Assembly: GCA_028289585.1 (NCBI GenBank)
Contig: JANQPI010000010.1
Coordinates: 620,001 to 684,000 of the forward strand
Direction: 5' to 3'
Length of the DNA: 64,000 nucleotides
DNA from: Candidatus Zixiibacteriota bacterium
Lineage (GTDB): Bacteria > Zixibacteria > MSB-5A5 > GN15 > FEB-12
Positions 22,506 through 38,790 of the stretch are shown here, piece by piece (position 1 is the stretch's first letter; the number at the start of each line of letters is the position of its first letter). The translations under genes were made by a program, and so were the position numbers. Under the pieces are notes generated by a model, which saw only the letters and a program-made list of their open reading frames with translations, was not told the DNA's origin and searched no databases.

Positions 22506-23654
22506 CTAAATGACGTTCGTTTCTTCGACCAGTTTGCCGGCTGTGAAGCGGTCCAGCGCCAGGTCGCTAATGTCTATTGTCAGATTCTGTTCGGTGATCA
22601 GTTCCATGGTCAATTGACCGGTTGCGGGTGCATGCATGAAGCCATGACCGGAATATCCGGTATTGTGCAGGAACCCCTTGATCTGCGGATCCCAGCCCAG
22701 AATCGCCTTGTGATCCGGCGTTGTCTCATACAGTCCGGCCCAGCTGCGGTTGACCGTCGCCTCCTCCAAACGCGGAATACGATCCAACCCCCGCATCAGG
22801 ATTTCATCCGTATAGTCGGGATGGACCGAGATGTCGAACGATGCTTCGACAGAGGGATCAGCCCAGCCCAGCAGTAAGCCTTTCGACTCTCGGTGCGTAT
22901 ACAATCCCGACGCTACATCGACAACCATGGGGAAGGTCGGCTCCAGCCAGTCGAGTTCGCCGGTCGTCACGCACTGGCGGCGGTAGGGGAGAACAGGCAC
23001 CTCAGCTCCGGCCATGCGTCCGATCTCTTTCGCCCAGGCTCCAGCGCAATTGACGACGACCGACGTCGAGATAGTGCCGCGATCAGTTTGAACACCCGTG
23101 ATCTGACCATTCGTGACGGTCAACCCGGTCACCTCGGTTCCCGGTTCGAGATCGACACCTCGCTCGCGAGCGACATGTTCGTACCCCGAAAGATAGTGTG
23201 ACGGATCAGCGACTCCGTCGGCCGGGCAGAAATTGCCGAACAGGATGTCGTCACGCTTCACCGACGGTGCCAGCTTGGCGATTTCGTCTTGTGTCAGCTG
23301 CTCAACAGGTAGACCCAGACTCCGTTGCAATTCGAAGTGCTGCTGAAATGTGTCACGATCGCGTTCGTTGCTCACCACGAAGAGGTAGCCACAGGCATCA
23401 TAGCCATCGTCCCAACCCGTGTCGTCCGGAAATGAACGGAACAGCTGCTGGGCGAGCATCGAGATTTCAACGTTCGTCTTATTGGAGAATTGGGCTCGGA
23501 TGCCACCGGCGGCTTTGGCTGTTGAGCCGGCTCCAAAGAAGCGATCTCGTTCGAGCAGCACCACCGTTCCGAAATCGGCCTTAGCCAGGTGATAGGCGAC
23601 TGTCATCCCGATGATCCCGCCGCCAATGATGACACAGTCCGCCGTAGTGCGCAT
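22506..23654 (-). CDS. FAD-dependent oxidoreductase (DAO / sarcosine-oxidase-beta type)
   Basis: 382 residues. The N-terminal CVIIGGGIIGMTVAYHLA is the dinucleotide-binding Rossmann motif, followed by a glutamate for ribose (LLERDRFFG). VVVNCAGAWAKEIG and a C-terminal NTGYSGHGFMHAPATG are typical of D-amino-acid, sarcosine or glycine-betaine oxidases. It should oxidise a secondary or D-amine; the substrate is unknown. It has no signal peptide, so it is cytosolic. It is divergent from the CLC gene and upstream of the secreted helical protein. Confidence 0.85.
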   Translation of the reverse strand: MRTTADCVIIGGGIIGMTVAYHLAKADFGTVVLLERDRFFGAGSTAKAAGGIRAQFSNKTNVEISMLAQQLFRSFPDDTGWDDGYDACGYLFVVSNERDRDTFQQHFELQRSLGLPVEQLTQDEIAKLAPSVKRDDILFGNFCPADGVADPSHYLSGYEHVARERGVDLEPGTEVTGLTVTNGQITGVQTDRGTISTSVVVNCAGAWAKEIGRMAGAEVPVLPYRRQCVTTGELDWLEPTFPMVVDVASGLYTHRESKGLLLGWADPSVEASFDISVHPDYTDEILMRGLDRIPRLEEATVNRSWAGLYETTPDHKAILGWDPQIKGFLHNTGYSGHGFMHAPATGQLTMELITEQNLTIDISDLALDRFTAGKLVEETNVI

Positions 23655-23781
23655 GCTCGCCTCCTCGCTCGTAAGCTACGATTGCCCGCTCGAAAGTCAA
23701 GGGAGAGACGCACTTACTCGGATCGGGACGGAGCTGATTTTAGCGGTTGCCGATGCTCCCTTCAGACCGTACCCAGTCTCC

Positions 23782-25557
23782 ATGCCCAGTCGGAGAGTCA
23801 AGCTCCTCATCGCCCTGCGCCATGGGTTACGCGGATCCGATACGTATCTGCTGCTTGCGATGGCGGTTCTCGTCGGGACAATCACCGGCGTCGGGGCGAT
23901 GCTGTTCCTTGAGCTCATCGAGCACGCCAACCACTTCTTCTTTCACCGCACCGACGAAGTTTTAGGTGAAACCTTTTCCGTGCTGGGGATCGGTGACCTC
24001 CCGATCTGGACGATCTTCATTCCGATGCTGGGCGGTCTTCTTGCCGGTCCCATTATCTACGGCTTCGCCAAGGAGGCGAAGGGGCATGGTGTCCCGGAAG
24101 TCATGAACGCCGTCGCCCGCCTTGGCGGCATCATCCGTCCCCGGGTCGCCGTTGCCAAATCAGCGGCCTCGGCACTCTGTATCGGATCCGGTGGTTCGGC
24201 TGGTACCGAGGGGCCAATCGTCCAGATTGGAGCCGCGCTCGGTTCGACGATCGGACAGGTATTTCGGATGCCTGCCGATCGCGTCAAAATCCTCGTCGGT
24301 TGTGGTGCGGCAGCCGGTATTTCGGCCGTGTTCAACGCCCCGATCGCCGGCGTGATCTTCTCGCTGGAGGTTATTCTCGGCGACTTCAACATCAAGACGT
24401 TCTCTCCGGTCATCATCGCCTCGGTCATGGCATCCGTCGTTTCGCGCTCGCTGTTGGGCGACCATCCGGCGTTCGACGTTCCGGACTACGCGCTCGTTTC
24501 GGCTTGGGAAGTGCCCCTCTATGCCGTGCTTGGCATTGTCTGTGGGGCCGTCGCGGTCGGCTTTATCCGTTCGCTCGATTTCGCAGAGAGTCGATTCGAC
24601 GGTTGGAACAAGATGCCAAACTGGCTCAAGCCGGCCATCGGTGGCCTGCTGCTCGGAGCGCTCGGCCTGGCCTTCCCTCAGGTTCTCGGTTCGGGGTATG
24701 AGACGATCAGTTCGGCGCTTTTCGGACACATCGAATGGACGATCATGCTCGCGCTCATCGGAGCCAAGATTCTTGCGACCTGCCTTACCCTTGGTTCCGG
24801 CAACAGTGGTGGAATCTTTGCACCCTCGCTCTACATGGGCGCAGTTGCCGGAGGTGCTTTCGGGGTCCTGGTCAATACTCTCTTCCCCGGTGTTACCGCA
24901 TCCCCCGGTGCCTATGCGCTGGTCGGAATGGCGGGCCTGGTGGCCGGGACAACGCACGCACCGATCACGGCGATTCTGATGATCTTCGAGATGACATCCG
25001 ATTACTCGATCATGTTACCATTGATGGTGTCAGTGGTTTTCGCAACGCTCATTGCGCGCCGGCTTTTTCCTCATACGATTTATACCGTTAAGCTCATTAA
25101 GCGTGGTATCGACATTCGCCATGGTCGCGATATTAATATCCTACGCAACCATCGTGTGCGCGAGTTGATGGACCGTAACTATCAATCAATATCCGCAGGT
25201 ACCACCTTGGCCGAGATTCTGCAGCTGATCGCCACGACCAACGAATCGTATTTCCTTGTCACCGACGGTGACCAGCGGCTGCGTGGCGTGATCTCACTGC
25301 AGGATATTCGCAAAGTGCTCGCCGATCAGGAAACACTGTCGCATCTCGTCGTCGCACAGGATCTGGTCATTCCCGGGGCAGTCGTCCTGACTCCGGATCA
25401 AACGCTTGAAGATGCTCAGGAAGTCGTCGCATCGCGCGGCTTTGGCTTGGTGCCTGTTGTCGACAGTCCGTCGGAGCATCGTCTTCTGGGTGTCTTACGC
25501 CGCGATCGACTGGTGGAGTACTACAACCGCGAGCTTCTTGATGCGATCAAGGAGTAA
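23782..25557 (+). CDS. CLC-family chloride channel/antiporter with CBS domains
   Basis: About 591 residues. GSGGSAGTEGPIVQIGA holds the gating glutamate, and LGSGNSGGIFAPSLYMGA and MAGLVAGTTHAPITAILM complete the anion pathway. After about ten membrane segments a pair of CBS domains occupies roughly residues 450-591 (VRELMDRNYQSISAG..., LGVLRRDRLVEYY). The chosen start ATG 23782 (MPSRRVKLL) keeps the gene clear of the divergent FAD gene; the frame is open upstream to 23611 but would overlap that gene. CBS domains suggest nucleotide regulation of transport. Confidence 0.88.
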   Translation: MPSRRVKLLIALRHGLRGSDTYLLLAMAVLVGTITGVGAMLFLELIEHANHFFFHRTDEVLGETFSVLGIGDLPIWTIFIPMLGGLLAGPIIYGFAKEAKGHGVPEVMNAVARLGGIIRPRVAVAKSAASALCIGSGGSAGTEGPIVQIGAALGSTIGQVFRMPADRVKILVGCGAAAGISAVFNAPIAGVIFSLEVILGDFNIKTFSPVIIASVMASVVSRSLLGDHPAFDVPDYALVSAWEVPLYAVLGIVCGAVAVGFIRSLDFAESRFDGWNKMPNWLKPAIGGLLLGALGLAFPQVLGSGYETISSALFGHIEWTIMLALIGAKILATCLTLGSGNSGGIFAPSLYMGAVAGGAFGVLVNTLFPGVTASPGAYALVGMAGLVAGTTHAPITAILMIFEMTSDYSIMLPLMVSVVFATLIARRLFPHTIYTVKLIKRGIDIRHGRDINILRNHRVRELMDRNYQSISAGTTLAEILQLIATTNESYFLVTDGDQRLRGVISLQDIRKVLADQETLSHLVVAQDLVIPGAVVLTPDQTLEDAQEVVASRGFGLVPVVDSPSEHRLLGVLRRDRLVEYYNRELLDAIKE

Positions 25558-25612
25558 ATCGATCGCCAATTCTCTCGTGGCGTAATCACGGTATCGACAC
25601 TATTTTCCCAAC

Positions 25613-27925
25613 GTGGGAGTTCCGCTTAGTGCCCGACCTGACTTGGTTACGTCTCGTGTTAGCAACGACGACGGTGACGTCTATGTCGTTGTCAAGGAGC
25701 CGGTGACAGGTCGTATCATCCGTCTCCGTGAGCCAGAGTTCTGGTTACTGACCGCTGCGGATAGCACTAAGACCGCCTCAATGCTCGCGAGCGAGTTTGC
25801 TGAACGGTGGGTGAGTCGTCTCAGCGCCGATGAAGTTACCGGGTTCTTTGCTCAACTCGGAGCGCACGGATTTCTGACTCGACCGCCGACCGAGCAAGAG
25901 CGGGCTCGTTTGGCCAGCGATGAAAGCGCCCACACCCTTCTGGGACGATTGCTCTTCGTTAAGCTTCGTGCTTTTAATCCCGGACGTTTCCTCGACCGTC
26001 TCGCATCGATCTATCGACCATTTCATTCCGGGCTTGGCTTCATGCTGTTTGGCATAATCGCCGCCCTGGGAGTCATTGGCTTGATCGCCAACTTCGCGGT
26101 CTTTGCTGTTTCCCCTACCGAATTGTGGACTTCCGGTTCGATTCTCCTTCTCATTCCCGCCGTCTTTGTCGTCGTTGGGCTGCACGAGTTCGCACATGCT
26201 GTCGTGTGTCGTTACTATGGTGGCGAAGTGCGAGAGATCGGGTTTCTCCTGCTTTATTTCCAGCCCTGCTTCTACTGCGATATCTCCGATGCGTGGTTGT
26301 TTCCTCGGAAACGACAACGTCTCGCTGTGACCTGGGCGGGACCATTCATGCAGTTCTTGGTCATGGCGGCTGCCCTGGGGGTATGGCGAGTGACCGAGCC
26401 CGGTGTAGTGATTAATGAATTCGCTCGCATGGTCGTGCTGGTAGCGTGGGTCAACTTTCTGTTTAACTTCAACCCGTTGATCAAGCTCGATGGCTACTAT
26501 CTGCTCGTTGACCTCGTCGACATTCCCAACCTGCGTCAACGCGCCTTTACCTATCTTCGTGGAATCTACCGTTACTATATCGTCGGTGACGACACGCCAC
26601 CGCCAACGGTCACACCCCGAGAACAGCGGGTCTTTCTGATTTATGGATTTCTGGCGGGTCTGTTCTCGACAGCAATCATCGGTCTCATTCTGTGGCTGGC
26701 GGCATCGCTGGTAATTGGTGCCTGGGGCGGCGTGGGTTTAGTCTTGTTTGCCGGATTACTCGCGGCTATGCTCCGAAAACGACCGCCCCGTGAGGATCGC
26801 TCCGCAATGAACGATTCGGCTCCAACGCCGCCCCGAGGAACACGTCGCTTCTGGCGCCGCATCAGCTACGGCATCGTCGCCGTTGTTGTCTTTGTCGTTG
26901 GTGTTGCCGTGCCATTTCCAGACCGCGTATCGGGTGCCGTTACGGTCGTCCCGTTACTGACCTTCGATCTATCATTGAACGAATTTGGTCTCTTGGAGCA
27001 ATCGCTTCGACAGCGCGGGCAGGAACCGGTTGTGCAAACCTCGTACTTGCAAATGACGTCGAGTGATGTTGCCGCGCTTCGTCTCTCACCCCAGGTCATG
27101 GATGGCGATCGCGTCACTGCCGGGGATACGATCGCGATTCTTTCGTCGAATCAGGTGACCCAAGAGTTGTCGGTTGTGGCCGCCGAACTGGAGCGATTGG
27201 AAAGCGAACGAGATCTGTTGATGGCACCGCCGAAACCGGAAGCCGTTGCCGAAGCATCGGCGGAAGTCGATGCCGCTCAGGCGCAACTCGATCAGTTGGT
27301 GCAGGAGCAAGAGCGAATCTCACAGCTGGCCGAGCGAAATCTGATTGCAGTCGAAGAGCGAGAGCAAGTCGACTCACGTGTCGCCGTGGCCCGGGCAGAT
27401 CTGGCTAATCGCCAATCCGCTCTCGATCTCCTGATCGCGCCACCTCGCGACGAAGAGCTCGATGTCATCTCTCGGCAAGTCGACATCCAGAACGCACGCA
27501 AGGCGTTCCTTCTCGACCAACAGGCAGCCCAAATAGTCAGCACCCCAATCTCCGGTACAGCCATCGTACAGCCGGTCAACGGACGGTTCATGCGAATCGT
27601 TGCTCAGAATCAGGTCGAGATCATTGTGCCCGTTTCTGACTTTGATCTACCGCGTGTCAGTAGTGGTCAGGTCGTGAAGGTGAAGGTGCGAGCATGGCCG
27701 GATCGCGTGTTCTCCGGTGCCGTTGTACGGTTACCGGAAGCTGCTGATTCGACACTGGGGCCGCGCACGTATGCTGTGTCAGTCGTGGTTGATAATGCTG
27801 ATCGACTGCTTCGAGATGGCATGTCGGGATTCGCCAAAATCGAAACCGGTCGAACCGCATTGCTCCCCCAGCTGTGGCGGTATCTGCAATCGGTTGTGCG
27901 AGTGGAATTTTGGTCCTGGTGGTAG
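25613..27925 (+). CDS. PqqD-like / M50 metalloprotease / HlyD fusion (YydH-like peptide processing-export protein)
   Basis: 770 residues in three parts. Residues 1-105 look like a PqqD/RRE-type peptide-binding domain. Residues about 140-410 form an M50 site-2-protease membrane domain with zinc motif HEFAHA (His191, Glu192, His195) and IKLDGYYLL with Asp293 as third ligand. After a membrane helix near 425 comes a HlyD-type adaptor with a coiled coil (about 520-620) and flanking lipoyl-like strands. This architecture is that of the so-called putative peptide zinc metalloproteases such as YydH, which serve exported modified peptides. The start is GTG 25613; the first ATG is too far in. A 30-codon peptide gene follows 317 bases downstream. 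Confidence 0.83.
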   Translation: MGVPLSARPDLVTSRVSNDDGDVYVVVKEPVTGRIIRLREPEFWLLTAADSTKTASMLASEFAERWVSRLSADEVTGFFAQLGAHGFLTRPPTEQERARLASDESAHTLLGRLLFVKLRAFNPGRFLDRLASIYRPFHSGLGFMLFGIIAALGVIGLIANFAVFAVSPTELWTSGSILLLIPAVFVVVGLHEFAHAVVCRYYGGEVREIGFLLLYFQPCFYCDISDAWLFPRKRQRLAVTWAGPFMQFLVMAAALGVWRVTEPGVVINEFARMVVLVAWVNFLFNFNPLIKLDGYYLLVDLVDIPNLRQRAFTYLRGIYRYYIVGDDTPPPTVTPREQRVFLIYGFLAGLFSTAIIGLILWLAASLVIGAWGGVGLVLFAGLLAAMLRKRPPREDRSAMNDSAPTPPRGTRRFWRRISYGIVAVVVFVVGVAVPFPDRVSGAVTVVPLLTFDLSLNEFGLLEQSLRQRGQEPVVQTSYLQMTSSDVAALRLSPQVMDGDRVTAGDTIAILSSNQVTQELSVVAAELERLESERDLLMAPPKPEAVAEASAEVDAAQAQLDQLVQEQERISQLAERNLIAVEEREQVDSRVAVARADLANRQSALDLLIAPPRDEELDVISRQVDIQNARKAFLLDQQAAQIVSTPISGTAIVQPVNGRFMRIVAQNQVEIIVPVSDFDLPRVSSGQVVKVKVRAWPDRVFSGAVVRLPEAADSTLGPRTYAVSVVVDNADRLLRDGMSGFAKIETGRTALLPQLWRYLQSVVRVEFWSWW

Positions 27926-28030
27926 GGGTCGCCAAGGAATTCTTTGCCGTATTCGTGCCTCCCCGGAAATAAATTCCTCTAAGTGTGACAGGTGTCGTCG
28001 TTATATCACACGGCACTCATCGGCGGGTGC

Positions 28031-28060
28031 TTGACAGAATTCACTGTCACACACTACATT
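28031..28060 (+). promoter_or_regulatory. candidate promoter of the micropeptide gene
   Basis: TTGACA (28031-28036), 18-bp spacer, TACATT (28055-28060). The inverted repeat TGACAG-N6-CTGTCA overlaps the -35 box and could be an operator. Confidence 0.55.
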
Positions 28061-28228
28061 AGACAGAACGACGCGGATAGATGTGAGTTGGCTTCGGGGG
28101 CGACCGGTCTAACTGGGGTATGCTTCTTTAGCCAGGCCGTCACGTCACTTCACACTAGCCCGTCAGGTGCGTGCACCGATGTGATAACAAAGTGCCCTTT
28201 GTTTCGCGAAGGGATCACCGTTAGTGGT

Positions 28229-28239
28229 AAAGGAGGTGA
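28229..28239 (+). promoter_or_regulatory. strong ribosome binding site of the micropeptide
   Basis: AAAGGAGGTGA is an almost complete match to the 16S anti-Shine-Dalgarno and ends a few bases before ATG 28243. It is the strongest such site I noticed in the window and identifies the 30-codon frame as a real gene. Confidence 0.8.
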
Positions 28240-28242
28240 CTC

Positions 28243-28335
28243 ATGACGGATTACAAGTTGACCGTTGAGGTCCTTGAAAGCCGTACCGCGCCCCTGGGTC
28301 TGAGCCTGGGTGGTCAGTGGGGTTTCGGCCGCTAA
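28243..28335 (+). CDS. 30-residue peptide, putative exported or RiPP-like precursor
   Basis: ATG 28243 to TAA 28333-28335 encodes 30 residues. The N-terminal half is polar and could be helical, with VEVLESRTAP at 8-17. The C-terminal half is small, glycine-rich and aromatic, ending GGQWGFGR (23-30). The leader/core split resembles precursors of ribosomally made peptides. There is no Cys, and Ser and Thr are few. It has its own promoter, a near-perfect Shine-Dalgarno and a strong terminator 28 bases after the stop, so it is probably expressed at a high level. The neighbouring PqqD/M50/HlyD protein could recognise, cleave and export it. No modification enzyme is adjacent. I do not recognise a named family. 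Confidence 0.72.
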   Translation: MTDYKLTVEVLESRTAPLGLSLGGQWGFGR

Positions 28336-28363
28336 TCGATTCGTCTCCACGAACACGGTGGAA

Positions 28364-28394
28364 AAGGCGGACCCTTGGGTCCGCCTTCCTTTTT
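28364..28394 (+). terminator. rho-independent terminator after the micropeptide
   Basis: AAGGCGGACC (28364-28373) pairs with GGTCCGCCTT (28378-28387) around CTTG, a 10-bp perfect stem, followed by CC and TTTTT (28390-28394). It ends the short micropeptide transcript. Confidence 0.88.
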
Positions 28395-28416
28395 GGTATA
28401 CCTGCTCGCTACTGAT

Positions 28417-31323
28417 TTATCGTGTCGCTAAGCGATCGGCCAGTGCTTTCATCATCTGACCGAGATGGACGACATCTCGTCGTGTCGTAAACGCTTTGCC
28501 ACGATCACGATCGGTCGTCTGCTCAAGAATCGTACGAACTGCACCCAACGCCGACTGGCAGTAACGAAACGCTGCTTCGTAGTCGCCACTTGCTTCGGCG
28601 ATCTGTGCCAGCAGCACTTCTGCCGAAACGGTATCTGGTGCCAGGCAACGCGGTTGTGCCCAGCGATAGGCTGCCTGGGCCCAGTCTTCTGCGTTGGTAA
28701 ACTCACCGGCGGCGAAACAGCGGCGCCCGATAGTGACAGCGATCCGCCCCCGCTCAATTCGCTCGGGCAACTCGTTGACACTTTGAGGTAGCTTTCGTAG
28801 TGACGCAGCGTCATCGAACGACCACAGCAGGTCCGCTACTAGCAATGCCTCTCGAGGAAGATGGTCTTCGTCCAGGCACGCACTCAGGTCGGTATGATAA
28901 GTCGCGACGCCTTCGAGTCGGCCGAGGATCAGCAGGGCGTGGATTTCCGCCGAGCGATTGGATTGTTCCCGAGCGAGATGCAGCGCATCGCGGGCTGCCA
29001 GGCGGGCGTCTTCCACCTGACCAAGAAACTCCTGCCAGGCAGCTTGTTCGAGTGCAAAATTGAGCTGTGTTATCGGGTCGTCCAGTTGTATGAGAAGTTC
29101 GCGGACGTTGTCGAGAGCATCTGCTGTTTTGTCGAGTTCCCCGCACGAGCGAGCGAGGTTCGCTCGATGCAGAAGGAAGATGGCACGGTGAGGGTTGTCG
29201 CTCAGCTGTTCGGCCAGAGCCAATCCGTCGCCAATCAGTTCTGCTGCCACCCTCGTGCGACCTGCGACGATCGTCAGTCCGGTCAGGTTTTCGAGGTTGA
29301 TCAGGACCTCTTTCTGATTGCCTATCCGTTGGTTTATTCGGAGCGACTCGGAGAGATCATCAGCTGCCGCGGCATAGTCACCCAGACGTTGATGAACGAA
29401 GCCGATGTTGTTGAGCGTACGAGCGATCTCACCGGCATCACCGAGCGAGCGTTTCTTGTCCAGCGATGCCCGGAAGAGGGCCAGGGCCCGTTCGAAGCGA
29501 CCGAGCATTGTGTAGGCCGAAGCGATGTTGTTGAGGGTCGACGCTACTTCTGGGTCGGCGTTCGCTGCGCGCTGGATGCGCAGGGCTTGCCGGTACTCGC
29601 GGAGCGCGGTGGCAAAGTCAGAGATCAGCCAGCAGAGATTTCCGAGGTTGTTATGGACACGGGATAACTCCAGCGTTTCTCCGAGTTCCGTGTACACAGC
29701 TGCGGCAGCCGAGAGAGCGTCGCGGCCAGCCCGGTAGTCCTGGCGCAGTCGATAGAGATCGCCGAGTGCTTTGTAGACGTCGCCAAGTAAGCGGTCGCGC
29801 GGTCGTCCGGTCTCTTCGTATTTCGCAACGATCTCTTCACATGCTGCGATTGCCTGAGCGATGTCGCCCATCTCTTTCCATAGTCGGGCCTTACGATAGG
29901 TTAGGGGGAGAGTAGCCCCAATCTGATCGTTGAATGTCAGATATCGACAGCAATCGTCCAGATACCGTATCGCACCCGCGGAATCACCTGACTCGCCAGT
30001 AGCTACCGCCGTCGATTCGGCCAACGCGATGATCGCATCGATGTCGCCAGCTTGGAGTGCCAGCCTGCCACGGCGAGTGACACAATCGGCATCGGTACTC
30101 CTCTGTAGAAGCTCTCGTGACAGATGCCGCATCGTTGCTGGTTTTGTGAGGGCGCGAAGGTGCGCTGCCAGAGGGTTCGGCGGAGTCGGTTCGGCAGCCT
30201 GTTGCAGGAGTTGTCGACGTTCAGCCCATCGCGTCTGCCCATAGCTCGAAAGCCACTGTCGACGCAGCACCGTCGGCCGAATCCAAGCTTTCGGTTTCGT
30301 CCATTGGCCTCCGTCGAGCTGCATCTGACCGCGCCGCCATGTCTCGCTGATAATCAGTCGTGCCTGATGCGTATCAGACTCACTCCAGAAGGCGAGGTCG
30401 CCGGCGTCCGGTGCTATGCACTGCTGCCAATCATCGCAGCTGCTTCCACTTGAAACGACATGCTTGGGCTGGATCGCCCGGTTAACTGGATACGGCGATC
30501 CAAGCTCGGCCAGTCGTTCCAGAACAATTGCGACCGATTGGGGCCGACGCTCAGGATCGACCGCGAGTAACTGGTCGATCAGCGCCGATAGTCCGACAGG
30601 TAGGTCCCGTCGAACATCATCAAGGGCATCTCGTTCGCCAGCGGCAACCCGAGCTGCGACGCGGGTAGGGTCACTGTCTTCGGCGAGGTAGGGGTGACGT
30701 CCGGTCAGTAACTCCCAGAACGATACCCCAAGGGCAAACAGCTCGGTTTGGATCGATGACGGGCCACCGGCCACCAGTTCCGGAGCGAGGTAGCCCACGG
30801 TGCCGATACCGAGGCGAGTGGATTCATCGTCGCTAACCTGGCGGCCAAGCGAAAAATCAGAAAGACGAACCCAACTGAGCTCACCGGTGGTCAAGCGGGT
30901 AGTGTCGACGGGGAGAAAGACATTGTGGGGCTTGATGTCACCATGGATGAGTCCGACAATCTCGCACCAGTAGAGGCCGGTGGCGAACGCTGAGAAGATA
31001 GCGAGCGCATCGCCGATCGCCTCGATACGGCCGACCTGATCGAGCGATGATCCGGCGCAGTAACTGAGCGCCAGCCAATCAGCATCGATATGCATCTGCT
31101 CAATCCCGACAATACCCGGCCAGCGATAGCCGCTAACCAGCGTTGCTTCTCGTCGCGCTAACTGTCGGAAGAGTTTGCGATCTTCCGGAGAGGAATCCGC
31201 AAGGGGAGATTTGATTGCGTAGCGACGGCCAGTTGGGTCACTGGCCAGAAAGACCGTTGCCGTGCCACCCTCGCCGAGGGTCGAGTGGAGCCTCCAGCCG
31301 GGCGGTAGCGACGGGCCGATCAC
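28417..31323 (-). CDS. Ser/Thr protein kinase with C-terminal TPR array
   Basis: 968 residues. The kinase domain (about 1-275) has G-loop LGEGGTATVF (16-25), Lys38 in YAIKSP, catalytic loop HGDIKPHN (127-134) and SDFSLG (155-160) in place of DFG. The catalytic Asp129 and metal Asp156 are kept, but HRD is HGD and the Gly of DFG is Ser. APE is present as LAPEL. From about residue 390 to 930 there are many TPR repeats (LNNIASAYTMLGRFERAL, LNNIGFVHQRLGDYAAA), a protein-binding scaffold. It starts with GTG overlapping the stop of the upstream histidine kinase (GTGA), so the two kinases are one transcription unit. Confidence 0.88.
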   Translation of the reverse strand: MIGPSLPPGWRLHSTLGEGGTATVFLASDPTGRRYAIKSPLADSSPEDRKLFRQLARREATLVSGYRWPGIVGIEQMHIDADWLALSYCAGSSLDQVGRIEAIGDALAIFSAFATGLYWCEIVGLIHGDIKPHNVFLPVDTTRLTTGELSWVRLSDFSLGRQVSDDESTRLGIGTVGYLAPELVAGGPSSIQTELFALGVSFWELLTGRHPYLAEDSDPTRVAARVAAGERDALDDVRRDLPVGLSALIDQLLAVDPERRPQSVAIVLERLAELGSPYPVNRAIQPKHVVSSGSSCDDWQQCIAPDAGDLAFWSESDTHQARLIISETWRRGQMQLDGGQWTKPKAWIRPTVLRRQWLSSYGQTRWAERRQLLQQAAEPTPPNPLAAHLRALTKPATMRHLSRELLQRSTDADCVTRRGRLALQAGDIDAIIALAESTAVATGESGDSAGAIRYLDDCCRYLTFNDQIGATLPLTYRKARLWKEMGDIAQAIAACEEIVAKYEETGRPRDRLLGDVYKALGDLYRLRQDYRAGRDALSAAAAVYTELGETLELSRVHNNLGNLCWLISDFATALREYRQALRIQRAANADPEVASTLNNIASAYTMLGRFERALALFRASLDKKRSLGDAGEIARTLNNIGFVHQRLGDYAAAADDLSESLRINQRIGNQKEVLINLENLTGLTIVAGRTRVAAELIGDGLALAEQLSDNPHRAIFLLHRANLARSCGELDKTADALDNVRELLIQLDDPITQLNFALEQAAWQEFLGQVEDARLAARDALHLAREQSNRSAEIHALLILGRLEGVATYHTDLSACLDEDHLPREALLVADLLWSFDDAASLRKLPQSVNELPERIERGRIAVTIGRRCFAAGEFTNAEDWAQAAYRWAQPRCLAPDTVSAEVLLAQIAEASGDYEAAFRYCQSALGAVRTILEQTTDRDRGKAFTTRRDVVHLGQMMKALADRLATR

Positions 31324-33077
31324 GGCTCGTCGGGCGAGTCGATGCCAGTATGGAAGCGGGGGAGAGTCAGCGTAAACGTTGTTCCCTCTCCAAGCGTCGA
31401 CTCGGCGGTTAGTTTGCCCCCGTGTTGGTCAACGATCTTCTGGCAGTTGTAAAGCCCCAGACCATGCCCACCCTTTTTTGTAGAGAAGTGCAGGGTGAAG
31501 ATCTTGGCGAGCGTCTCTTTCGACATACCAACGCCATTGTCAGTCACGGCGACGGAAATCTCATCGGCTTCGGAATCGTAGTCAGCCCGAATACCGATCT
31601 CGCGAGCGAACTCGGTGTCTTCGCCATTCTCGCTCTCGTGGACTGCTCGTTCTTCGATTGCGTCGGCTGCGTTGTTGAGCAGATTCATCAGCACCTGTTG
31701 AACCTGGCCGACATCGATTTCCAAGCTGGGAAGGTCGTTCGCCATATCGATCGAAAACTGGATCAGCTTTAGTCGGGGCTGTATCCGGAGTGAAAACAGA
31801 AGATCGTCGATCAGCCGGCGGAGGTCGTAGGCAATGTATTCCGGTTCGGGATTCGAGAAGTCCATGAGGCTGTCGACAAAACGTTTCACTTTGAAGACGT
31901 GATCGACAATCGCCGAGGTGTTGTGTTTCGCTTTGTCGAATTTGCTTCGATCGACGTTGAGGCTCAGCAACTCGGCATTGTTCGCGATGATTGACAGGTA
32001 ATTGTTAAGCTCATGTGCGACGGTGGCGGCCATCTCACCTCGAGCGACAAGTTTTTCGGAAAGAATCACGTACTGTTCCATCGTCACCTTTTCGGTGACA
32101 TCCTCCAGCGCCATGATCAAACCGGAGGAACCATCTGATAAGCGATCGGTCGGTGCGATCTTGATCGACAGGACTTTTTCAAGATAGCCAGTATTGTGGT
32201 AGTGTCGCGGATGTGTATGTGGCTCCTGAGTGGTGACCACGGTCGCCAGCATCTGTTGCCAGCGGGAACGTTCACTTTCCGGAATCAAATCAAGCAGCGA
32301 AGTTGGTGAAAGATCCTGATGGAGCAGTCGGATCTTCTCCCGGTCAAGGTCAAGGATCTCAAGTGCGATCGCGTTGATCGAGGCGATGCGCGTGTCGTTG
32401 TCCATCACAACGATACCCGTCGGCGAGTTCGCAACGACCGATTGATGGTACGACTTCAGCCGTTCGGTCTGTTCAAATGTCCGGGCGTTGTTCAGCGCAA
32501 TTGCCACGAGCTGCGCATAGAGCTCAAAGAGGTACAGGTCGGATTTGAGGAAGACTTTTCCCCGATCGGACGAGTCGAGATAGATCACCCCGATCACGGT
32601 ACCCTTCAGCATGACCGGCACACACATGATTGAGCGAAGGTTGAGCTCGACGACGGACTTTGCGGCCGAGAAGCGGTTGTCTGACTGAGCATCGGAGGTG
32701 AATACCGACCGCCCGGTCGCCGCAACCTGCGAGGTAATCGATGACGAGATGCGGAAGTCCTCTTCCATCATCTCCTCGCGACAGAGGTTGTACGCCGAAC
32801 GCACCTGCAGCTCACCGTTGTCGTCGAGCAACATTACCAGGCCTCGCTGGGCTTTCATCAACCCAATCGCGTTGCGCATTACGCGGTCGAGTACGGCATC
32901 AACATCGAGTGACGAATTCAGCGTCAGCGAAACATCAAGTAGCGCTTCCAGGTCTTCGGCTCGGCGCTGGGACTCCTGAGTCGCGTCGGTTGACAGTCGC
33001 GGATCATGATCGAGTAGCTTATCGTGATTGTCGATGATCTCCTTCAGAAGATCCTCTGAGAGATGTTCATTCACCAT
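31320..33077 (-). CDS. GAF-PAS sensor histidine kinase (soluble)
   Basis: 585 residues from ATG 33077; a TTG six bases earlier is possible. No membrane helices. A GAF domain lies at about 45-210, PAS at about 220-330 (VVANSPTGIVVMDNDTRIAS), then DHp with His355 in VAHELNNYLSIIANNAELL, and HATPase with N box LLNNAADAIEE, G1 VTDNGVGM and G2 GGHGLGLYNCQKIV. It is a cytosolic sensor autokinase. No response regulator lies next to it; its overlapping partner is the Ser/Thr kinase, so signal flow between His and Ser/Thr phosphorylation is plausible. Confidence 0.9.
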   Translation of the reverse strand: MVNEHLSEDLLKEIIDNHDKLLDHDPRLSTDATQESQRRAEDLEALLDVSLTLNSSLDVDAVLDRVMRNAIGLMKAQRGLVMLLDDNGELQVRSAYNLCREEMMEEDFRISSSITSQVAATGRSVFTSDAQSDNRFSAAKSVVELNLRSIMCVPVMLKGTVIGVIYLDSSDRGKVFLKSDLYLFELYAQLVAIALNNARTFEQTERLKSYHQSVVANSPTGIVVMDNDTRIASINAIALEILDLDREKIRLLHQDLSPTSLLDLIPESERSRWQQMLATVVTTQEPHTHPRHYHNTGYLEKVLSIKIAPTDRLSDGSSGLIMALEDVTEKVTMEQYVILSEKLVARGEMAATVAHELNNYLSIIANNAELLSLNVDRSKFDKAKHNTSAIVDHVFKVKRFVDSLMDFSNPEPEYIAYDLRRLIDDLLFSLRIQPRLKLIQFSIDMANDLPSLEIDVGQVQQVLMNLLNNAADAIEERAVHESENGEDTEFAREIGIRADYDSEADEISVAVTDNGVGMSKETLAKIFTLHFSTKKGGHGLGLYNCQKIVDQHGGKLTAESTLGEGTTFTLTLPRFHTGIDSPDEP

Positions 33078-33224
33078 GACCAACGTGCCTTGCTCTTGCG
33101 CTGTGGCATCGGCACCGCCTGCGTATTGTCGAGGTCAAATGGGCGCCGCTTGCCGGTTGCTGGGGCTATCGATTGTATCGGCAGCGACTTAGGGGAGCTT
33201 GAGACTAGACCTGTCGTTGACCGC

Positions 33225-34979
33225 CTACCAGCGGTGGCTGAGACGAACGAGGAAGCGGAGATCGGTATCGTCGGTGGAGTCGAGACGGCGCCCGGCGGTC
33301 AATCGAATCGTCGGGCCGAGGTAGATCGAAACAGCGGCCGATTGGCGGACTTCCTGTCCCTCAAAGCTCGTCGAGCCCTCAGCAGCAACCGTTCCAAGGT
33401 CGTAGCGGAGACCTAGGGCCAACCCGAATCGGGTCAGCTGGAGGCGCCCTTCAGCTCCACCCAGCCAGAAGGCATTGCCACGATACTCTTTGAAGCGATA
33501 TCCGGGCAGAGAGCCCAGACCACCCAGAGTGAACTGTCGGAATGCGGGCAGGTCGCCATCGCTTGAGCCCACCAGTCCGCGGGCAATGACCGCCAATCGA
33601 TCAGAAATCGGCTGGTAACGCCGAACGTGGAGGCGCCAGCGTGTGTAATCGAGCGTTCCGCCGACCGCATGGTCGAAACGGATCGATGCCACCCAGGCGG
33701 CTTGTAGAAAGAGCAATCCGGGAAGGCGTTCATCCCATGTCAGGTCGACGGTTACCTCGTCGAGTTCCGTTGAATCGATCCCCTGGGCCACGATGTCTCG
33801 TTGCTCGTCGGGAAGGTCCGAGAAGTTGGCGCGAAAGTCTTTATTCGCCCCGAAGAGCGACCACAGGTTGCGGCCGGCCGGGCGCCAGGTGAGATCATCC
33901 CGCCGATACGAGACACGGAGGTGGAACGGAATGAGTCGGCCAGCTCCGTGCCAGAATGCATACGCATACCATCCATCGACTTCGTACCAATCTTTGAAGT
34001 CTTCGGCGACGAGGATCGAGAACAGTGTGTTTTCCCACGCCGGCAGCAGCCAATCATCGTCCGAGTGCAGTTCGCGTCGATAGCCTCCCCCAATTCCGAG
34101 CCAACCGCCACGGCGGATGACCGTTTGCTCGACTCGGAATCGCAGTCTCGGTTGCTCGCTGTGGAACGCGTAGGCGCCGGCGATCTCCAGTCGGGGAAGA
34201 ACCGTATCTGGATCAGCCACATCGACAGCCAATCCGACTCGCGCCCCATCGACGCGATCGTATCCGACAATCGGCTGCCAGGTTACCCATCCGGTCGATT
34301 GGCGAAAACGCTCGCGCAGATTGGGCTGCCGCAGATCACCGGCCACTGCCGATCCGTACACTCGCGAATTCGAGGCCAGGGTCACGGTCCCGGTTACGCT
34401 CACGACTGAGCCTCGCACCACGGCGCTGTCTCCGATGGCGATATCGCCGAACAGACAGACGACGTTCTTGTTCACCTCGCCATCGATAGTCACCGGACCG
34501 GTAATGGCGATCACGTTGCCGCGGACAAAATCACCGACGGGGATTGCGCCGGGCGTTTCCCTGAGAATGCGATTACCTTTACGGCGCTGCACAGTCGGGC
34601 TGTCGATGTCATCCCTCGTGAGCAGTGCCAGTGTTGCATCGCTATCTGAAGTGATGACTTCGATATCGCTTAGCATAGACCAGGGGAAGAATTCTGACCC
34701 CCAGGTGATTCCGTCGTCAGAGAAGCGAACCTCGGTCCCTACCGTAGCGCTGCCGTTGGTACTCGCAATCGAATCGTACGGGAGTTGGATGCTGCGATTG
34801 TCCGGTAGCGTGAGGGCCAGCGAATGTGGTCCAAGACGGAGAGTCAGGTAAACGAACTCACTGCGAACCGGTTGATACGGCTCATAATCAGACTGGGCCC
34901 CGGCAGGTTCAGCCAGGGAGAACAGTGCGACCAGAGCGGCCCAGCGCATACAGCGACCCATGGGCGCGATCTTAGTCAA
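33225..34979 (-). CDS. outer-membrane protein: bactofilin-like segment plus Omp85-like barrel
   Basis: 584 residues. Signal peptide MRWAALVALFSLAEPAGAQ starts at the third Met. Residues about 150-225 carry repeated short beta turns (GNVIAITGPVTIDGEVNKN, VVRGSVVSVTGTVTL) like bactofilin or polymer-forming cytoskeletal repeats. The rest is a beta barrel with FTLGGLGSLPGYRFKEYRG, the GGxxSLxGY-type motif of the Omp85 surface-antigen domain, and ends LVRLSHRW with a terminal aromatic. POTRA domains are absent. The start may be TTG 34979 (overlapping the Nudix stop), ATG 34961 or ATG 34949. The function is unknown. Confidence 0.75.
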   Translation of the reverse strand: MTKIAPMGRCMRWAALVALFSLAEPAGAQSDYEPYQPVRSEFVYLTLRLGPHSLALTLPDNRSIQLPYDSIASTNGSATVGTEVRFSDDGITWGSEFFPWSMLSDIEVITSDSDATLALLTRDDIDSPTVQRRKGNRILRETPGAIPVGDFVRGNVIAITGPVTIDGEVNKNVVCLFGDIAIGDSAVVRGSVVSVTGTVTLASNSRVYGSAVAGDLRQPNLRERFRQSTGWVTWQPIVGYDRVDGARVGLAVDVADPDTVLPRLEIAGAYAFHSEQPRLRFRVEQTVIRRGGWLGIGGGYRRELHSDDDWLLPAWENTLFSILVAEDFKDWYEVDGWYAYAFWHGAGRLIPFHLRVSYRRDDLTWRPAGRNLWSLFGANKDFRANFSDLPDEQRDIVAQGIDSTELDEVTVDLTWDERLPGLLFLQAAWVASIRFDHAVGGTLDYTRWRLHVRRYQPISDRLAVIARGLVGSSDGDLPAFRQFTLGGLGSLPGYRFKEYRGNAFWLGGAEGRLQLTRFGLALGLRYDLGTVAAEGSTSFEGQEVRQSAAVSIYLGPTIRLTAGRRLDSTDDTDLRFLVRLSHRW

Positions 34980-35545
34980 CGATCTCGGTAGCGCCTACTA
35001 TAATCCGCGATCGCTTGGCGATGCGACACAAAGGCGATCTGCTCGGGAAGGCTGTCGAACGACCAATACTGGACATCAAGAGCATCATCGGCAGCCTCAA
35101 GCGTACCGTCCACTGGCTCCCCTCGATACAGAAGCAGGACAGCGTTATTGCGTGGATCATCCGTCCCAGCATACACCTCAAAGAAATCGATAATGCGCAC
35201 GGTGAGCCCGGTCTCCTCGCGTACCTCCCGAACAGCAGTTTCGGCTGGATGCTCCGACCACTCCATGAACCCTGCCGGCAGGCACCACCAGCCGACTTTG
35301 GGTGGATGTGCTCGTTTGACCAGCAGAATCTGGTCATCGATGACAACTATCACTCCCGCTGCGGGCACCGGATTGTGATAGTGAATGAATCCGCATGACG
35401 CGTCCGGGCAGACCAATCGTTCCGTGCCGTCGATAGTCTGTTGCTGGAGTTCATGACGCGACCAGGGACAAAACTGGTAGCCGCCGAAGTTGTTCTTGCG
35501 GGCGGTTAGGAGATCAGCGTCAAAGTTCGCGTGGCGGTCATCCAT
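34976..35545 (-). CDS. Nudix hydrolase with N-terminal zinc-ribbon-like segment
   Basis: 189 residues. Residues 20-60 hold spaced Cys/His (QFCPWSRHEL, LVCPDASCGFIHYHNP), like the zinc ribbon before the Nudix fold in NudC-type enzymes. The Nudix box is complete: GFMEWSEHPAETAVREVREETGL, residues G-x5-E-x7-REVxEETGL. It hydrolyses a nucleoside diphosphate linked to another group; the substrate is not predictable. It lies 10 bases after the PP2C gene and overlaps the outer-membrane protein gene. Confidence 0.87.
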   Translation of the reverse strand: MDDRHANFDADLLTARKNNFGGYQFCPWSRHELQQQTIDGTERLVCPDASCGFIHYHNPVPAAGVIVVIDDQILLVKRAHPPKVGWWCLPAGFMEWSEHPAETAVREVREETGLTVRIIDFFEVYAGTDDPRNNAVLLLYRGEPVDGTLEAADDALDVQYWSFDSLPEQIAFVSHRQAIADYSRRYRDR

Positions 35546-35555
35546 GATGCCCTAC

Positions 35556-37823
35556 CTACCCGGTTGCGACAGACATTGTTCCGTCGGCGCAGCGCTTCAG
35601 TGCGATTACGGTTGTGTCATCCTGGGGGGGAGACGACGAATCGTGTTTCTTCACATCGGCCAGAACCGCCGCCAGAATTGACTTGGGATCGCGATCACGG
35701 AGCGTGATCAGCATGTCGGCCAACCGCTGCTCGCCGAATTCCTCGCCCGCACTGTTCATCGCCTCCGACAATCCATCGGTGAAGAAGAAAATGAGATCGT
35801 CCTCAGTCAGTGCCACCTCAGCTTCGGTGTACTGCATCCCGCCGAAGGCACCGATGATGGGGCCACCCTGTTCCAGCCATTCGACCCGACCATCACGGCG
35901 TACCACAATCGGGTAGTTGTGCCCGGCGTTGGCGTAATGAAACTGGCCGCCTGCGGGATCGAATTCTCCGTAGAACAGCGTGACGTACTTCTCGCTCGAC
36001 GTTGATTCATTGATCTGCTGATTCATGTTACACAGAATTCGGCTGATCGGATTGCCGTTGTTGACCTCCGCTCGCAGAATCGCCTGGATCTGTGCGATAA
36101 GGAGAGCCGCCGGCATGCCTTTCCCCGACGCATCGGCAATAACAATTCCCAGCCGATTCCGAGAGGGGACCGGGATGAAGTCATAGAAGTCACCCCCTAC
36201 AGTGCGAGACGGGGCAGAGAAAGCTGAGATCGACAGCGTTGGCCAGTCGGGTGGACGTCGTGGCAAGAGGTCCAGCTGAATCTGCCGCGCCATCGAGATC
36301 TCTTCCTGTAACCGAAGTCGTTCGAGTGACTCCGCATACAGACGAGCGTTGGTCAAGGCCGTGACCATCTGATTTGCTAAGACACCAAGCAGGTTGATGT
36401 CCTCGGCAGAGTAGGTATAGCCCGCTGCCTTTCCGGTCAGGGCAAGACATCCAAGGAGATGTTTGGAGTCTTTGAGCGGCAGAATCAGTTTCACACGTCG
36501 CTCGTTGAAAAAGTCAGCCAGCGAGGAATCCCGTCCGTAGGCGGTGAGTGTCGCATACGGGGTCGGTTGATCGAGAAGATTGATGGCGCGAAGCATCAGG
36601 TCGGAACGATCCAGTACCCGGCGACGAGGAACCCCATCCCCCGGCAGTACGGCATACTCCGAAACAGTATCGTCAAAGAGCACGAAATAGACGTCTTCGA
36701 CGAGAAGCGATGTCTTGAGTGTTTCTTCAATCGTTTCCCGCAGCGCCCGAGGATCGAACTGTGTGATGATCTGTCGCGAGAACCGTTCGATAATGCTGCG
36801 ATGGTCCGAGCGTGTACGCATGAACAGCAACTGAATGATATTGTCAATCCATGAGTTGATCGGCTGAAAGAGCAACAGCAGGATAACAAGAAGGACCCAG
36901 CCAAGAACCTGTGCCCCTTGACCGATAAGCGGTACCAGCCAATCGGTGAGCCGCATACCGATTGCCAGATAGAGCCCAACCAGAACCGCAGACGTGATCG
37001 TGAAGATGAGCGACTGGCGAAAGACGAGCTGTACATCCAGAAACTGGTGACGGAAGAGCGCATAGCCGACAAAGCCAACCATGCCGGCAAGGCCGATGAA
37101 CCAGAGAACGTTGACACCGACGGTCGCCAGCGAGGCGTCCCACACCAGTTCGAGTGCCCAGGCGCCGAAATAGCCGATTAGGCCAAGTCTGATTCCCCAG
37201 ATGACGAGCTGTGTCTGTCGCTTGACCAGCGGATTGGAAATGAATCGATAGCCTGCTTCAAGGTAATACATTGCTGTCGCCGCATAGAGGGCGTTGATCG
37301 CCGTGAAAATCGGGATATGGTTCTCGGCGATCCAATTGAAAAGGAGCAGGAGCTGAGTAAGCAGTTGTACGAGAGGCGAAAGGATGATCGAAAGGAACCC
37401 CTCATTGGCGACTGCTGCTGTCAAGAAGGCAAGGAACGGACTGACATCGGTGAACAGTACCACCACGACCACGTGAATGAGGGCCGGGAAGTAGACAAAC
37501 GTACGCATCGCCGGATAACGGAAATGGCGCAACCGATCGACAGGGAAGAGCCACGAAAAGACCAGAAGAAGCGGGAAGAAGAACTCCCAGACGACAGCCA
37601 ACCGTGTCAGGAGATCGTCCCCAGTCAATGGAGTTGTACCGGTGAGCACTGTCAGGCCAGCCAGGCCTAGCGAGAGTGGCGCCAACCCGGCAGCGATAAA
37701 CATCGCGCCGGCGACTCGATTGAGTCGATTCCCCAGGTTGTCGCGTGCAACCGTAATTCCGAGAAAGAGAAGGAATCCTCCCGCCAGGAATTCGATGACA
37801 ACGATGAGAAGGTTGACGTCCAT
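35556..37823 (-). CDS. membrane GAF-PP2C (SpoIIE/RsbU-type) phosphatase
   Basis: 755 residues. About ten membrane helices fill residues 1-325, a GAF domain spans about 345-510, then the short coiled ARQIQLDLLPRRPP linker typical of RsbU-like enzymes. The PP2C domain follows (about 530-745) with GGDFYDF, VIADASGKGMPAALL, YANAGHNYP and FFFTDGLSEAMN holding the metal-binding aspartates. It should dephosphorylate the STAS protein encoded two genes upstream, triggered by a membrane or GAF signal. It lies 15 bases after the RsbW-like gene. Confidence 0.92.
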   Translation of the reverse strand: MDVNLLIVVIEFLAGGFLLFLGITVARDNLGNRLNRVAGAMFIAAGLAPLSLGLAGLTVLTGTTPLTGDDLLTRLAVVWEFFFPLLLVFSWLFPVDRLRHFRYPAMRTFVYFPALIHVVVVVLFTDVSPFLAFLTAAVANEGFLSIILSPLVQLLTQLLLLFNWIAENHIPIFTAINALYAATAMYYLEAGYRFISNPLVKRQTQLVIWGIRLGLIGYFGAWALELVWDASLATVGVNVLWFIGLAGMVGFVGYALFRHQFLDVQLVFRQSLIFTITSAVLVGLYLAIGMRLTDWLVPLIGQGAQVLGWVLLVILLLLFQPINSWIDNIIQLLFMRTRSDHRSIIERFSRQIITQFDPRALRETIEETLKTSLLVEDVYFVLFDDTVSEYAVLPGDGVPRRRVLDRSDLMLRAINLLDQPTPYATLTAYGRDSSLADFFNERRVKLILPLKDSKHLLGCLALTGKAAGYTYSAEDINLLGVLANQMVTALTNARLYAESLERLRLQEEISMARQIQLDLLPRRPPDWPTLSISAFSAPSRTVGGDFYDFIPVPSRNRLGIVIADASGKGMPAALLIAQIQAILRAEVNNGNPISRILCNMNQQINESTSSEKYVTLFYGEFDPAGGQFHYANAGHNYPIVVRRDGRVEWLEQGGPIIGAFGGMQYTEAEVALTEDDLIFFFTDGLSEAMNSAGEEFGEQRLADMLITLRDRDPKSILAAVLADVKKHDSSSPPQDDTTVIALKRCADGTMSVATG

Positions 37824-37838
37824 TGCGGCAGATAGGCC

Positions 37839-38258
37839 CTAGAAGGACTTGGAGATGCTGATCGTTGTGCCCCGTTCGCTGGCCGAGATGTCTACGTCGT
37901 CCATCAAAGCCCGAACGATGAAGATGCCTCGACCGACCTCTTTGAGCAGGTTTTCGTCAGCGACGGGATCGTCGATCTGTTCTTCGGTGAAGCCGGTACC
38001 TTGATCGGAAACGGCAATCGTTACCTGTCCCGGCTCCGACGATATTTCGACAGTTACGACTTTCTCGGGTGAGGATTTGTTGCCGTGGAGGATAGCGTTA
38101 TTGACCAGTTCCGAGACGGAGATGGCGATGTCGGCTCGAATTGATTCACCGACGGTCAACTCCCTGAGTTGCCCGTCGAGAAACGAGTCTACATCGGCAA
38201 GATACTCCTGGTCGGAGGGGATGGTAATGCGATTACCATTGATAATCGGTTTCTGCAT
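37839..38258 (-). CDS. anti-sigma regulatory factor kinase (RsbW-like)
   Basis: 139 residues, a single HATPase domain: SVSELVNNAILHGN (N box), VTIAVSDQGTGF (G1) and GRGIFIVRALMDDV (G2). Such proteins bind either a sigma factor or a STAS protein and phosphorylate the STAS serine. It lies between the STAS gene (46-base gap) and the PP2C gene. No sigma factor is encoded nearby, so its other partner is unknown. Confidence 0.9.
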   Translation of the reverse strand: MQKPIINGNRITIPSDQEYLADVDSFLDGQLRELTVGESIRADIAISVSELVNNAILHGNKSSPEKVVTVEISSEPGQVTIAVSDQGTGFTEEQIDDPVADENLLKEVGRGIFIVRALMDDVDISASERGTTISISKSF

Positions 38259-38304
38259 GATGCTTCGGTCTCCCAGACAGTATCTGGCGTTTGGTGTTGG
38301 GAGC

Positions 38305-38643
38305 TTACCGGAAGCTCTGGATAGCGTCTTCGATTGAGTCGTAGGCGTCGAAAACCGTGACCAGCTTCGTGATGGTCAGCAGCGACTGGATTTTGTCGGT
38401 AACGTTGGCAAGCTTGAGCTCACCGCCCGAATTTTTAAGCGTCGTATAACCAGAAATGAGGATGCCGAGCCCGGTTGAGTTCATCCAATCGACCTGGCTC
38501 AAATCGACAATCACCTGCTTCTTGTCGTGCTCTATGTATTCGTAGAGTTTGTCGTGGAGCAGACTCGCATCCGGACCACCCATGATCTTCCCTTTGGGTT
38601 CAAGGATCACTACTCCATCCTGCTCGCGATCTGATAGTTTCAT
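38305..38643 (-). CDS. STAS-domain anti-anti-sigma factor (RsbV-like)
   Basis: 112 residues from ATG 38643, chosen because GGAGGT lies nine bases upstream; the frame stays open to 38703. The STAS fold is clear: VVILEPKGKIMGGPDASLL, then VIVDLSQVDWMNSTGLGIL with the serine of N-S-T-G-L-G as phosphorylation site. It is the first gene of the partner-switch set STAS, kinase, phosphatase. When dephosphorylated it should bind the RsbW-like protein and release that protein's target. Confidence 0.92.
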   Translation of the reverse strand: MKLSDREQDGVVILEPKGKIMGGPDASLLHDKLYEYIEHDKKQVIVDLSQVDWMNSTGLGILISGYTTLKNSGGELKLANVTDKIQSLLTITKLVTVFDAYDSIEDAIQSFR

Positions 38644-38790
38644 GCTGTCGGGACCTCCGATCTGACTGACCATACGAGCGGTATCCGGCATCGGTTTCGC
38701 CATAGCGTACCGCGTAGGGACGTATCTTCTTGTCGTTGATACGAATCAGCCCGCGCTGGACAGTCAGGTCAAGCGCTTTTCCCGGACCGT

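Follow-up and report, generated by a model that had tools for sequence, protein, structure and literature searches.

A 64,000-nucleotide stretch of DNA from a Candidatus Zixiibacteriota bacterium (assembly GCA_028289585.1, contig JANQPI010000010.1, positions 620,001 to 684,000; called the window below) carries two neighboring genes, one for a fusion of a recognition domain, an M50 site-2 protease, and an HlyD-type adaptor, and one for a peptide of 30 residues. The question raised by this locus is whether one such protein can both mature and export one such peptide, and what the product would be used for. The original prediction, made from the letters of the window, had proposed a compact two-gene system for signaling or antimicrobial use, perhaps read by the kinases encoded just beyond. 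The analysis reported here makes it probable that the pair belongs to a peptide maturation and export system spread throughout the phylum Zixibacteria.

A conserved 30-codon peptide gene

The 30-codon open reading frame (ORF), pointed out earlier as the only small gene nearby, proved to be conserved, and judging from its codon pattern it is a real gene under protein-level selection and not a chance ORF. Among 26 homologous leaders, differences per codon position 1, 2, and 3 were 0.26, 0.18, and 0.63, respectively, and synonymous changes exceeded non-synonymous ones. The peptide profile, searched against the genomes of 41 relatives, gave one match per genome at E ≤ 1e-8 in 35 of them; the six genomes without a match were also without the fusion, and the next-best match anywhere had an E-value of 0.014.

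The encoded peptide reads MTDYKLTVEVLESRTAP (proposed leader) followed by LGLSLGGQWGFGR (proposed core). Its family, mostly present in a single copy per genome, has the leader YxLxIExLEx[RK]IAP and a short core, in most relatives 6 to 9 residues long and usually ending in GGQ. The alignment of homologues from three families gave MxxYxLTIEVLEARIAPxGxSxGGQ, with Y, L, L, E, P, and S invariant, and at nearly all loci in three families the peptide gene was located 200 to 550 bp (about 1 kb once) 3' of the fusion gene. The Gly-Gly-Gln of the core (window positions 28312-28320) also forms the catalytic motif in translation release factors, possibly by coincidence.

Domains and closest relative of the fusion protein

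The three parts originally assigned to the fusion were confirmed, M50 and HlyD_D23 by Pfam and the PqqD-like part by its predicted fold. Fold comparison of the N-terminal domain was undertaken because Pfam PqqD gave no match on it. The AlphaFold model of the whole fusion had a predicted local distance difference test score (pLDDT) of 83. Residues 1-108 (pLDDT 81) were modeled with strands at 12-17, 23-28, and 35-39 followed by helices, and the top nine matches of this fold in the PDB were all recognition domains of ribosomally synthesized and post-translationally modified peptides (RiPPs) or enzymes bearing such a RiPP recognition element (RRE), including the lasso-peptide B1 RREs 5v1v, 5v1u, and 6jx3, PqqD (5sxy), TigE, and a sactipeptide enzyme, with probability 1.00 and an E-value of 0.005 for the best match. 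In the M50 domain, H191, E192, H195, and D293 (in NPLIKLDG) were invariant across 45 fusion homologues. The C-terminal part resembled the MacA and EmrA adaptors in Foldseek, and hydropathy placed the final membrane helix at about residues 413-446, directly ahead of the adaptor, a position that fits a cytoplasmic RRE, a membrane-embedded protease, and an adaptor outside. A sequence search of the PDB with the fusion returned nothing but one weak adaptor match.

The closest characterized relative of the fusion is the daptide protease MpaP and not YydH, whose type had been named in the original prediction. The NCBIfam family NF041824 (daptide metalloprotease) matched fusion residues 26-387 with an E-value of 7e-64 and 216 bits, against a cut-off of 300, and hhalign aligned the fusion family with an MpaP from Streptomyces at a probability of 99.9, the 427 aligned columns taking in the RRE as well, whereas the match to NF058609 (YydH/LiaK) was weak, 39.7 bits being below the cut-off of 225. 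MpaP removes the precursor leader as an RRE-dependent intramembrane peptidase (PMC10036551), and daptide precursors carry ELExMEAP, the mutagenesis numbering setting P at -1 (PMC10036551). The Zixibacteria leader LExRIAP is a different, though related, motif in this register, with L(-7), E/D(-6), A(-2), and P(-1).

Both systems join an RRE to an M50 intramembrane protease and have short precursors, often several per locus, with a leader ending in L(E/D)...AP. They differ in the additional HlyD adaptor of the window fusion, with none recognizable in the Streptomyces MpaP examined, and in that the core here is not aliphatic and is paired with a gene for a Ser/Thr kinase with TPR repeats (kinase-TPR). 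The C-terminal Thr of daptides ends none of the aligned peptides, and no mpaB, mpaC, mpaD, mpaM, or ABC gene is adjacent at the window locus.

Epipeptides (YydF/YydH, LiaK) likewise involve a membrane M50 protease, to which the maturation and release of a small peptide are ascribed (PMC7026026). The peptide of the window system is distinct from an epipeptide, and no radical SAM epimerase, an epipeptide feature, occurs among the window neighbors; that radical SAM, lanthipeptide, and ABC genes are not adjacent was noted originally and holds. The ammosamide/lymphostin leader family NF033737 was matched weakly by a few family members (best E-value 3e-4 with 20.7 bits, the cut-off being 30), and no PEARL enzyme of that type was seen nearby. 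None of the curated families covers the peptide, and no description of this peptide system was found in the literature (titles, abstracts, and term matches). In the broad sense, the system would be an RRE-dependent RiPP by the modeled RRE domain of its maturation protein and, from the alignments, by a short precursor in which the leader is conserved and the core varies. No gene for a modifying enzyme adjoins the locus.

Co-occurrence of peptide and fusion in the phylum

The distribution of both genes was surveyed in 132 Zixibacteria genomes, most of them metagenome-assembled. The peptide was present in 104 and the fusion in 101, two extra HlyD-only matches having been left out of the fusion count. 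Both were found in 97 genomes, the peptide alone in 7, the fusion alone in 4, and neither in 24 (Fisher p 3e-16, uncorrected for kinship, so that the true significance is lower because the genomes are related). In at least two of the seven peptide-only genomes (G018 and G041), the fusion adjoins the peptide gene and is cut by a contig end. Such a survey had been proposed in the original prediction, with fusion without peptide and peptide without fusion as the patterns that would tell against it, and its proposal mostly withstood the counts.

In several families, the fusion gene is unlinked to the peptide gene or at least 20 kb distant, and both are kept in lineages where they are unlinked; a dependence of the peptide on adjacency to the fusion was rejected on this ground. 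Deep families retain the leader, in forms such as VEELEEKIAP and IEELEEKVAP, with a short core, often S.GGQ. The peptide matches of the deepest families have modest E-values (1e-5 to 3e-3), and these calls lean on the independent kinase neighborhood. Two complete chromosomes of one genus carry tandem ORFs of the form M.YEL.IEQLEARIAPSR[YW]GAD, four in one and seven in the other; every ORF is preceded by a motif of its own, and most have their own terminator. The upstream sequence common to these tandem genes (L063 8380-9580 and L064 8400-10170), TGTAAG-N15-CAAATA, is a possible promoter of a non-sigma-70 type.

Many Zixibacteria share a wider syntenic block, running from purF to ClC on the upstream side and from the kinases to STAS on the downstream side, and a chance ORF held in place by conserved chromosomal synteny, with no functional unit, might look similar. 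This explanation is hardly credible, because the peptide is under codon-level selection and co-occurs with the fusion even when unlinked; the linkage, moreover, outlasts changes in the surrounding genes.

Pairing of the peptide gene with a kinase-TPR gene

The kinase-TPR profile was run over the same 132 genomes, and 106 peptide places were assessed with a distance limit of 1.5 kb. A kinase-TPR gene was found within this limit at 91 of the 106 places, compared to 58 of 106 for the fusion, and was tail-to-tail with the peptide gene in all 91, with a median gap of 66 bp (range 40-377). At 39 of the 91 kinase-linked places there was no fusion within 1.5 kb, some through contig ends, and in eight genomes (G027, G038, G048, G099, G109, G111, G117, and G123) the fusion had moved away with the peptide gene still abutting the kinase-TPR gene. 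Kinase linkage was missing in the multi-copy genus (G058-G061), in G050, and at some contig ends. In many families, a histidine kinase gene adjoins the kinase-TPR gene. The fusion as the sole linked partner of the peptide was rejected by the kinase-TPR linkage. A functional association of the peptide with the kinase-TPR protein is suggested by this correlation in gene order, because the flanking genes vary between families while the pair persists.

The stronger linkage to the kinase would also suit a small ORF that serves the kinase-TPR protein as a regulator, for instance as an intracellular ligand, its co-occurrence with the fusion being indirect; genome G056, which has peptide and kinase and lacks the fusion, fits this explanation as well. 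It is nevertheless quite improbable, given that the leader fits the MpaP substrate register, that LExRIAP peptides adjoin fusion homologues in Acidobacteriota and Aminicenantes, and that LExR-like tags are also borne by giant proteins adjoining fusion homologues.

One leader with variable cores outside the phylum

In Acidobacteriota (the phylum being assigned via the Aminicenantes label), 16 of 247 genomes matched the peptide profile, and most of the peptide places examined adjoin fusion homologues. In two related genomes, one of them labeled Aminicenantes, MAKKSTKKVVKLNVERLEKRIAPTRAAIAMG is repeated three or four times in tandem beside the fusion. The LExRIAP leader stands here before unrelated cores, the tails being Gly/Asn/Pro-rich repeats (GLLGYEGQPGNQ), about 75 ordinary-looking residues, or a Ser/His/Lys-rich stretch with a GGGSCGCA end; one peptide with this leader has about 95 amino acids. 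Overall, the cores range from SRYGAD through GGQ to tails of about 75 residues under one conserved leader. An invariable leader with a variable core is what leader-guided processing predicts, and the leader-core logic is supported thereby. The Acidobacteriota precursors adjoining fusion homologues at L123, L128, L129, L130, and L132 have cores of GLLGYEGQPGNQ repeats, except for the one that is Ser/His/Lys-rich with the GGGSCGCA end.

In Alphaproteobacteria, RRE-M50 homologues were located by tblastn against plasmids a few genes downstream of giant genes. The giant proteins of Pontibrevibacter, Pseudosulfitobacter, and Thalassospira are annotated LEPR-XLL and have about 10,600, 12,900, and 4,000 residues, respectively. 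The N-termini read MEPRVLLSADP in Pontibrevibacter, LEPRFLLSADP in Pseudosulfitobacter, LEPRLLLSAD in Mesorhizobium, and LEPRVLLNAD in Methylosinus. The same kind of RRE-M50 fusion follows a gene with an N-terminal LEPRxLL, which resembles LExRIAP, but the putative substrates have about 4,000 to 13,000 residues, AP is missing from the motif, and TolC and extra adaptors are nearby. The LEPR-XLL profile NF012209 gave nothing over its cut-off in the window genome and a single match among 26 peptides (E-value 0.13), the Zixibacteria peptides falling short of the cut-off. A LEPR protein beside every fusion homologue was rejected, several Azospirillum, Burkholderia, and Magnetospirillum loci lacking either the motif at the annotated start or a LEPR annotation. 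At the plasmid loci L143, L144, and L179, LEPR-XLL genes of 12-39 kb precede the fusion homologues, and TolC, DUF3467, or extra adaptors are encoded nearby.

The resemblance of these N-termini suggests that LExR-type sequences may be general substrates of the fusion family. A broader proposal, which we regard as doubtful, is that an LExR leader read by an RRE-site-2 protease-HlyD fusion defines an undescribed export route, serving cores of about 8 residues in Zixibacteria up to LEPR-XLL proteins of more than 10,000 residues in Alphaproteobacteria, and forming in Zixibacteria a one-peptide communication circuit with a TPR-Ser/Thr kinase as reader.

Proposed mechanism and its alternatives

The proposed phylum-wide maturation and export system would work in four steps, and we consider this reading to be the probable one. 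The 30-residue peptide would be made as leader and core from its own promoter. The leader would be bound by the cytoplasmic RRE domain of the fusion, after which the membrane-embedded M50 protease would cut behind Ala-Pro and free the core. The periplasmic HlyD-type domain would then hand the core outward, probably via a TolC-like channel encoded elsewhere. Binding, cleavage, and hand-over to the adaptor are derived from MpaP homology and the shared leader register. As to the original claim of maturation and export, the RRE fold and the MpaP homology thus support a maturation role, and cleavage and export are argued by analogy.

A fifth step is speculative and is put forward tentatively, with something less than even confidence: the core would serve as a signal, and the kinase-TPR protein together with its histidine-kinase neighbor would sense its level by direct or indirect means. 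The idea that the kinases beyond might be the readers has gained a genetic link from the 91 tail-to-tail pairs, and the mode of reading is conjectural. The conserved core implies a conserved target. Receptors of the RRNPPA family bind the re-imported mature peptide through their TPR domain and have a DNA-binding helix-turn-helix domain or a Rap phosphatase as their output. The window system resembles RRNPPA systems (PMC9765709) in that a short linear peptide, for which export is proposed here, is encoded beside a TPR protein, and it differs in its Ser/Thr kinase output, in its Gram-negative-type phylum, and in its probable maturation by an RRE-site-2 protease.

Several points weigh against the proposal. 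No inner-membrane export partner (ABC or MFS) and no TolC is adjacent at the locus, and the position of the cut after AP is set by likeness to the daptide leader. The four genomes of the multi-copy genus have peptides and yet no full-length kinase-TPR match at threshold, in G050 the kinase is at least 56 kb from either peptide gene, and the retained convergent pairing could come partly from slow synteny change. In G056, there is no fusion between ClC and the peptide gene. The fusion is missing there precisely between the two (L173 6368-6725), by natural deletion or an assembly gap.

If the product were instead an antimicrobial or envelope-active peptide of the bacteriocin or epipeptide type, with the kinases as mere neighbors, the tandem copies in one genus and the antimicrobial or natural-product peptides made by RRE-protease relatives (daptides and YydF) would be readily understood. 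We find this unlikely, since the core S.GGQ is kept through most of the phylum rather than diversifying, the peptide is near-universal and single-copy, most of the proposed cores are short and rich in Gly and Ser, the neighborhood contains neither an immunity nor an ABC gene, and all 91 nearby kinase-TPR genes are tail-to-tail. Of the two uses suggested originally, a diversifying antimicrobial is disfavored by the conserved core, and signaling stays speculative.

The near-universal, single-copy occurrence and the conserved Tyr and Glu would also agree with a housekeeping product, for instance a PqqA-like cofactor precursor or a structural peptide of the envelope, which the fusion would make jointly with a modifying enzyme encoded elsewhere; the gene of this enzyme could be unlinked just as the two genes are in some families. 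Pfam PqqD did not turn up another RRE protein in the window genome, a weak test that misses the window's own RRE, and, with the same insensitivity, few matches besides the fusion itself in 40 relatives. The strict pairing with kinase-TPR is atypical of cofactor precursors, and a housekeeping product seems improbable, although it is the least improbable of the alternatives considered here.

Gene layout and neighborhood

The coordinates of the features are listed in Table 1. Promoter-like pairs comparable to that of the window were found 5' of most homologous peptide genes, which are likewise preceded by strong purine-rich sites, and the terminator sits between the 3' ends of the peptide and kinase-TPR genes. 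The fusion and peptide genes are served by separate promoters and do not form one operon. The two-gene unit of the original prediction has to be abandoned, the kinase linkage being tighter than that of the fusion, which is unlinked or far off in several families. The GTG start of the fusion is backed by an ungapped N-terminal alignment with homologues. A TAnATT-like -10 box was seen a few bases 5' of this start codon (window positions 25600-25613) and in homologues, and a Shine-Dalgarno sequence is absent before the fusion gene in most homologues; the two together suggest leaderless transcription of the fusion gene. Rfam gave a single sub-threshold match over window positions 23000-34000, which leaves the intergenic region unexplained by a known RNA family.

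The window neighbors of the fusion and peptide genes are a ClC channel, the kinases, an Omp85-like protein, and an oxidoreductase. The kinase block (28417-38703, minus strand) runs on into genes for Omp85-like, NUDIX, SpoIIE phosphatase, RsbW-like ATPase, and STAS proteins. The genes from kinase to STAS amount to a partner-switching signaling set, transcribed toward the peptide gene.

Table 1. Features of the peptide locus in window coordinates
Feature	Position	Strand	Basis
RRE / M50 site-2 protease / HlyD adaptor fusion	25613..27925	+	770-aa ORF; Pfam M50, HlyD_D23
N-terminal RiPP-recognition (PqqD-like) domain, fusion residues 1-108	25613..25936	+	Predicted fold
HExxH zinc motif of M50 domain (HEFAH, residues 191-195)	26183..26197	+	Invariance in homologues
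Periplasmic adaptor region, fusion residues 434-749	26912..27859	+	Foldseek matches; hydropathy
Sigma-70-type promoter of peptide gene, TTGACA-N18-TACATT	28031..28060	+	Sequence
Shine-Dalgarno sequence of peptide gene, AAGGAGGTGA	28230..28239	+	Sequence
Precursor peptide gene, 30 codons and stop	28243..28335	+	Family alignments, genome-wide profile matches, codon pattern
Proposed leader MTDYKLTVEVLESRTAP, AP at its end	28243..28293	+	Conserved LExRIAP; putative cut site
Proposed core LGLSLGGQWGFGR	28294..28332	+	S.GGQ kept through most of the phylum; putative product
Intrinsic terminator of peptide gene	28364..28395	+	GC-rich inverted repeat, then T run
Ser/Thr kinase-TPR protein, 968 aa, tail-to-tail with peptide gene; proposed reader	28417..31323	-	Pfam Pkinase, TPR
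GAF-PAS histidine kinase overlapping kinase-TPR gene; possible partner	31320..33083	-	Pfam

Significance for Zixibacteria and related systems

The peptide is near-universal in a phylum without well-studied isolates, and a conserved physiological role is likely because of this distribution. With one peptide and one protein, the locus offers a minimal setting for asking whether peptide maturation and peptide export can lie with the same RRE-guided intramembrane protease, and it is a candidate, beyond Firmicutes, for communication by peptide, TPR protein, and kinase. Giant bacterial proteins bear an unexplained LEPR-XLL motif at their N-termini, for which a function is suggested by the LExR link. 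For the phylum itself, the finding points to an undescribed peptide system, perhaps one for signaling among uncultured Zixibacteria.

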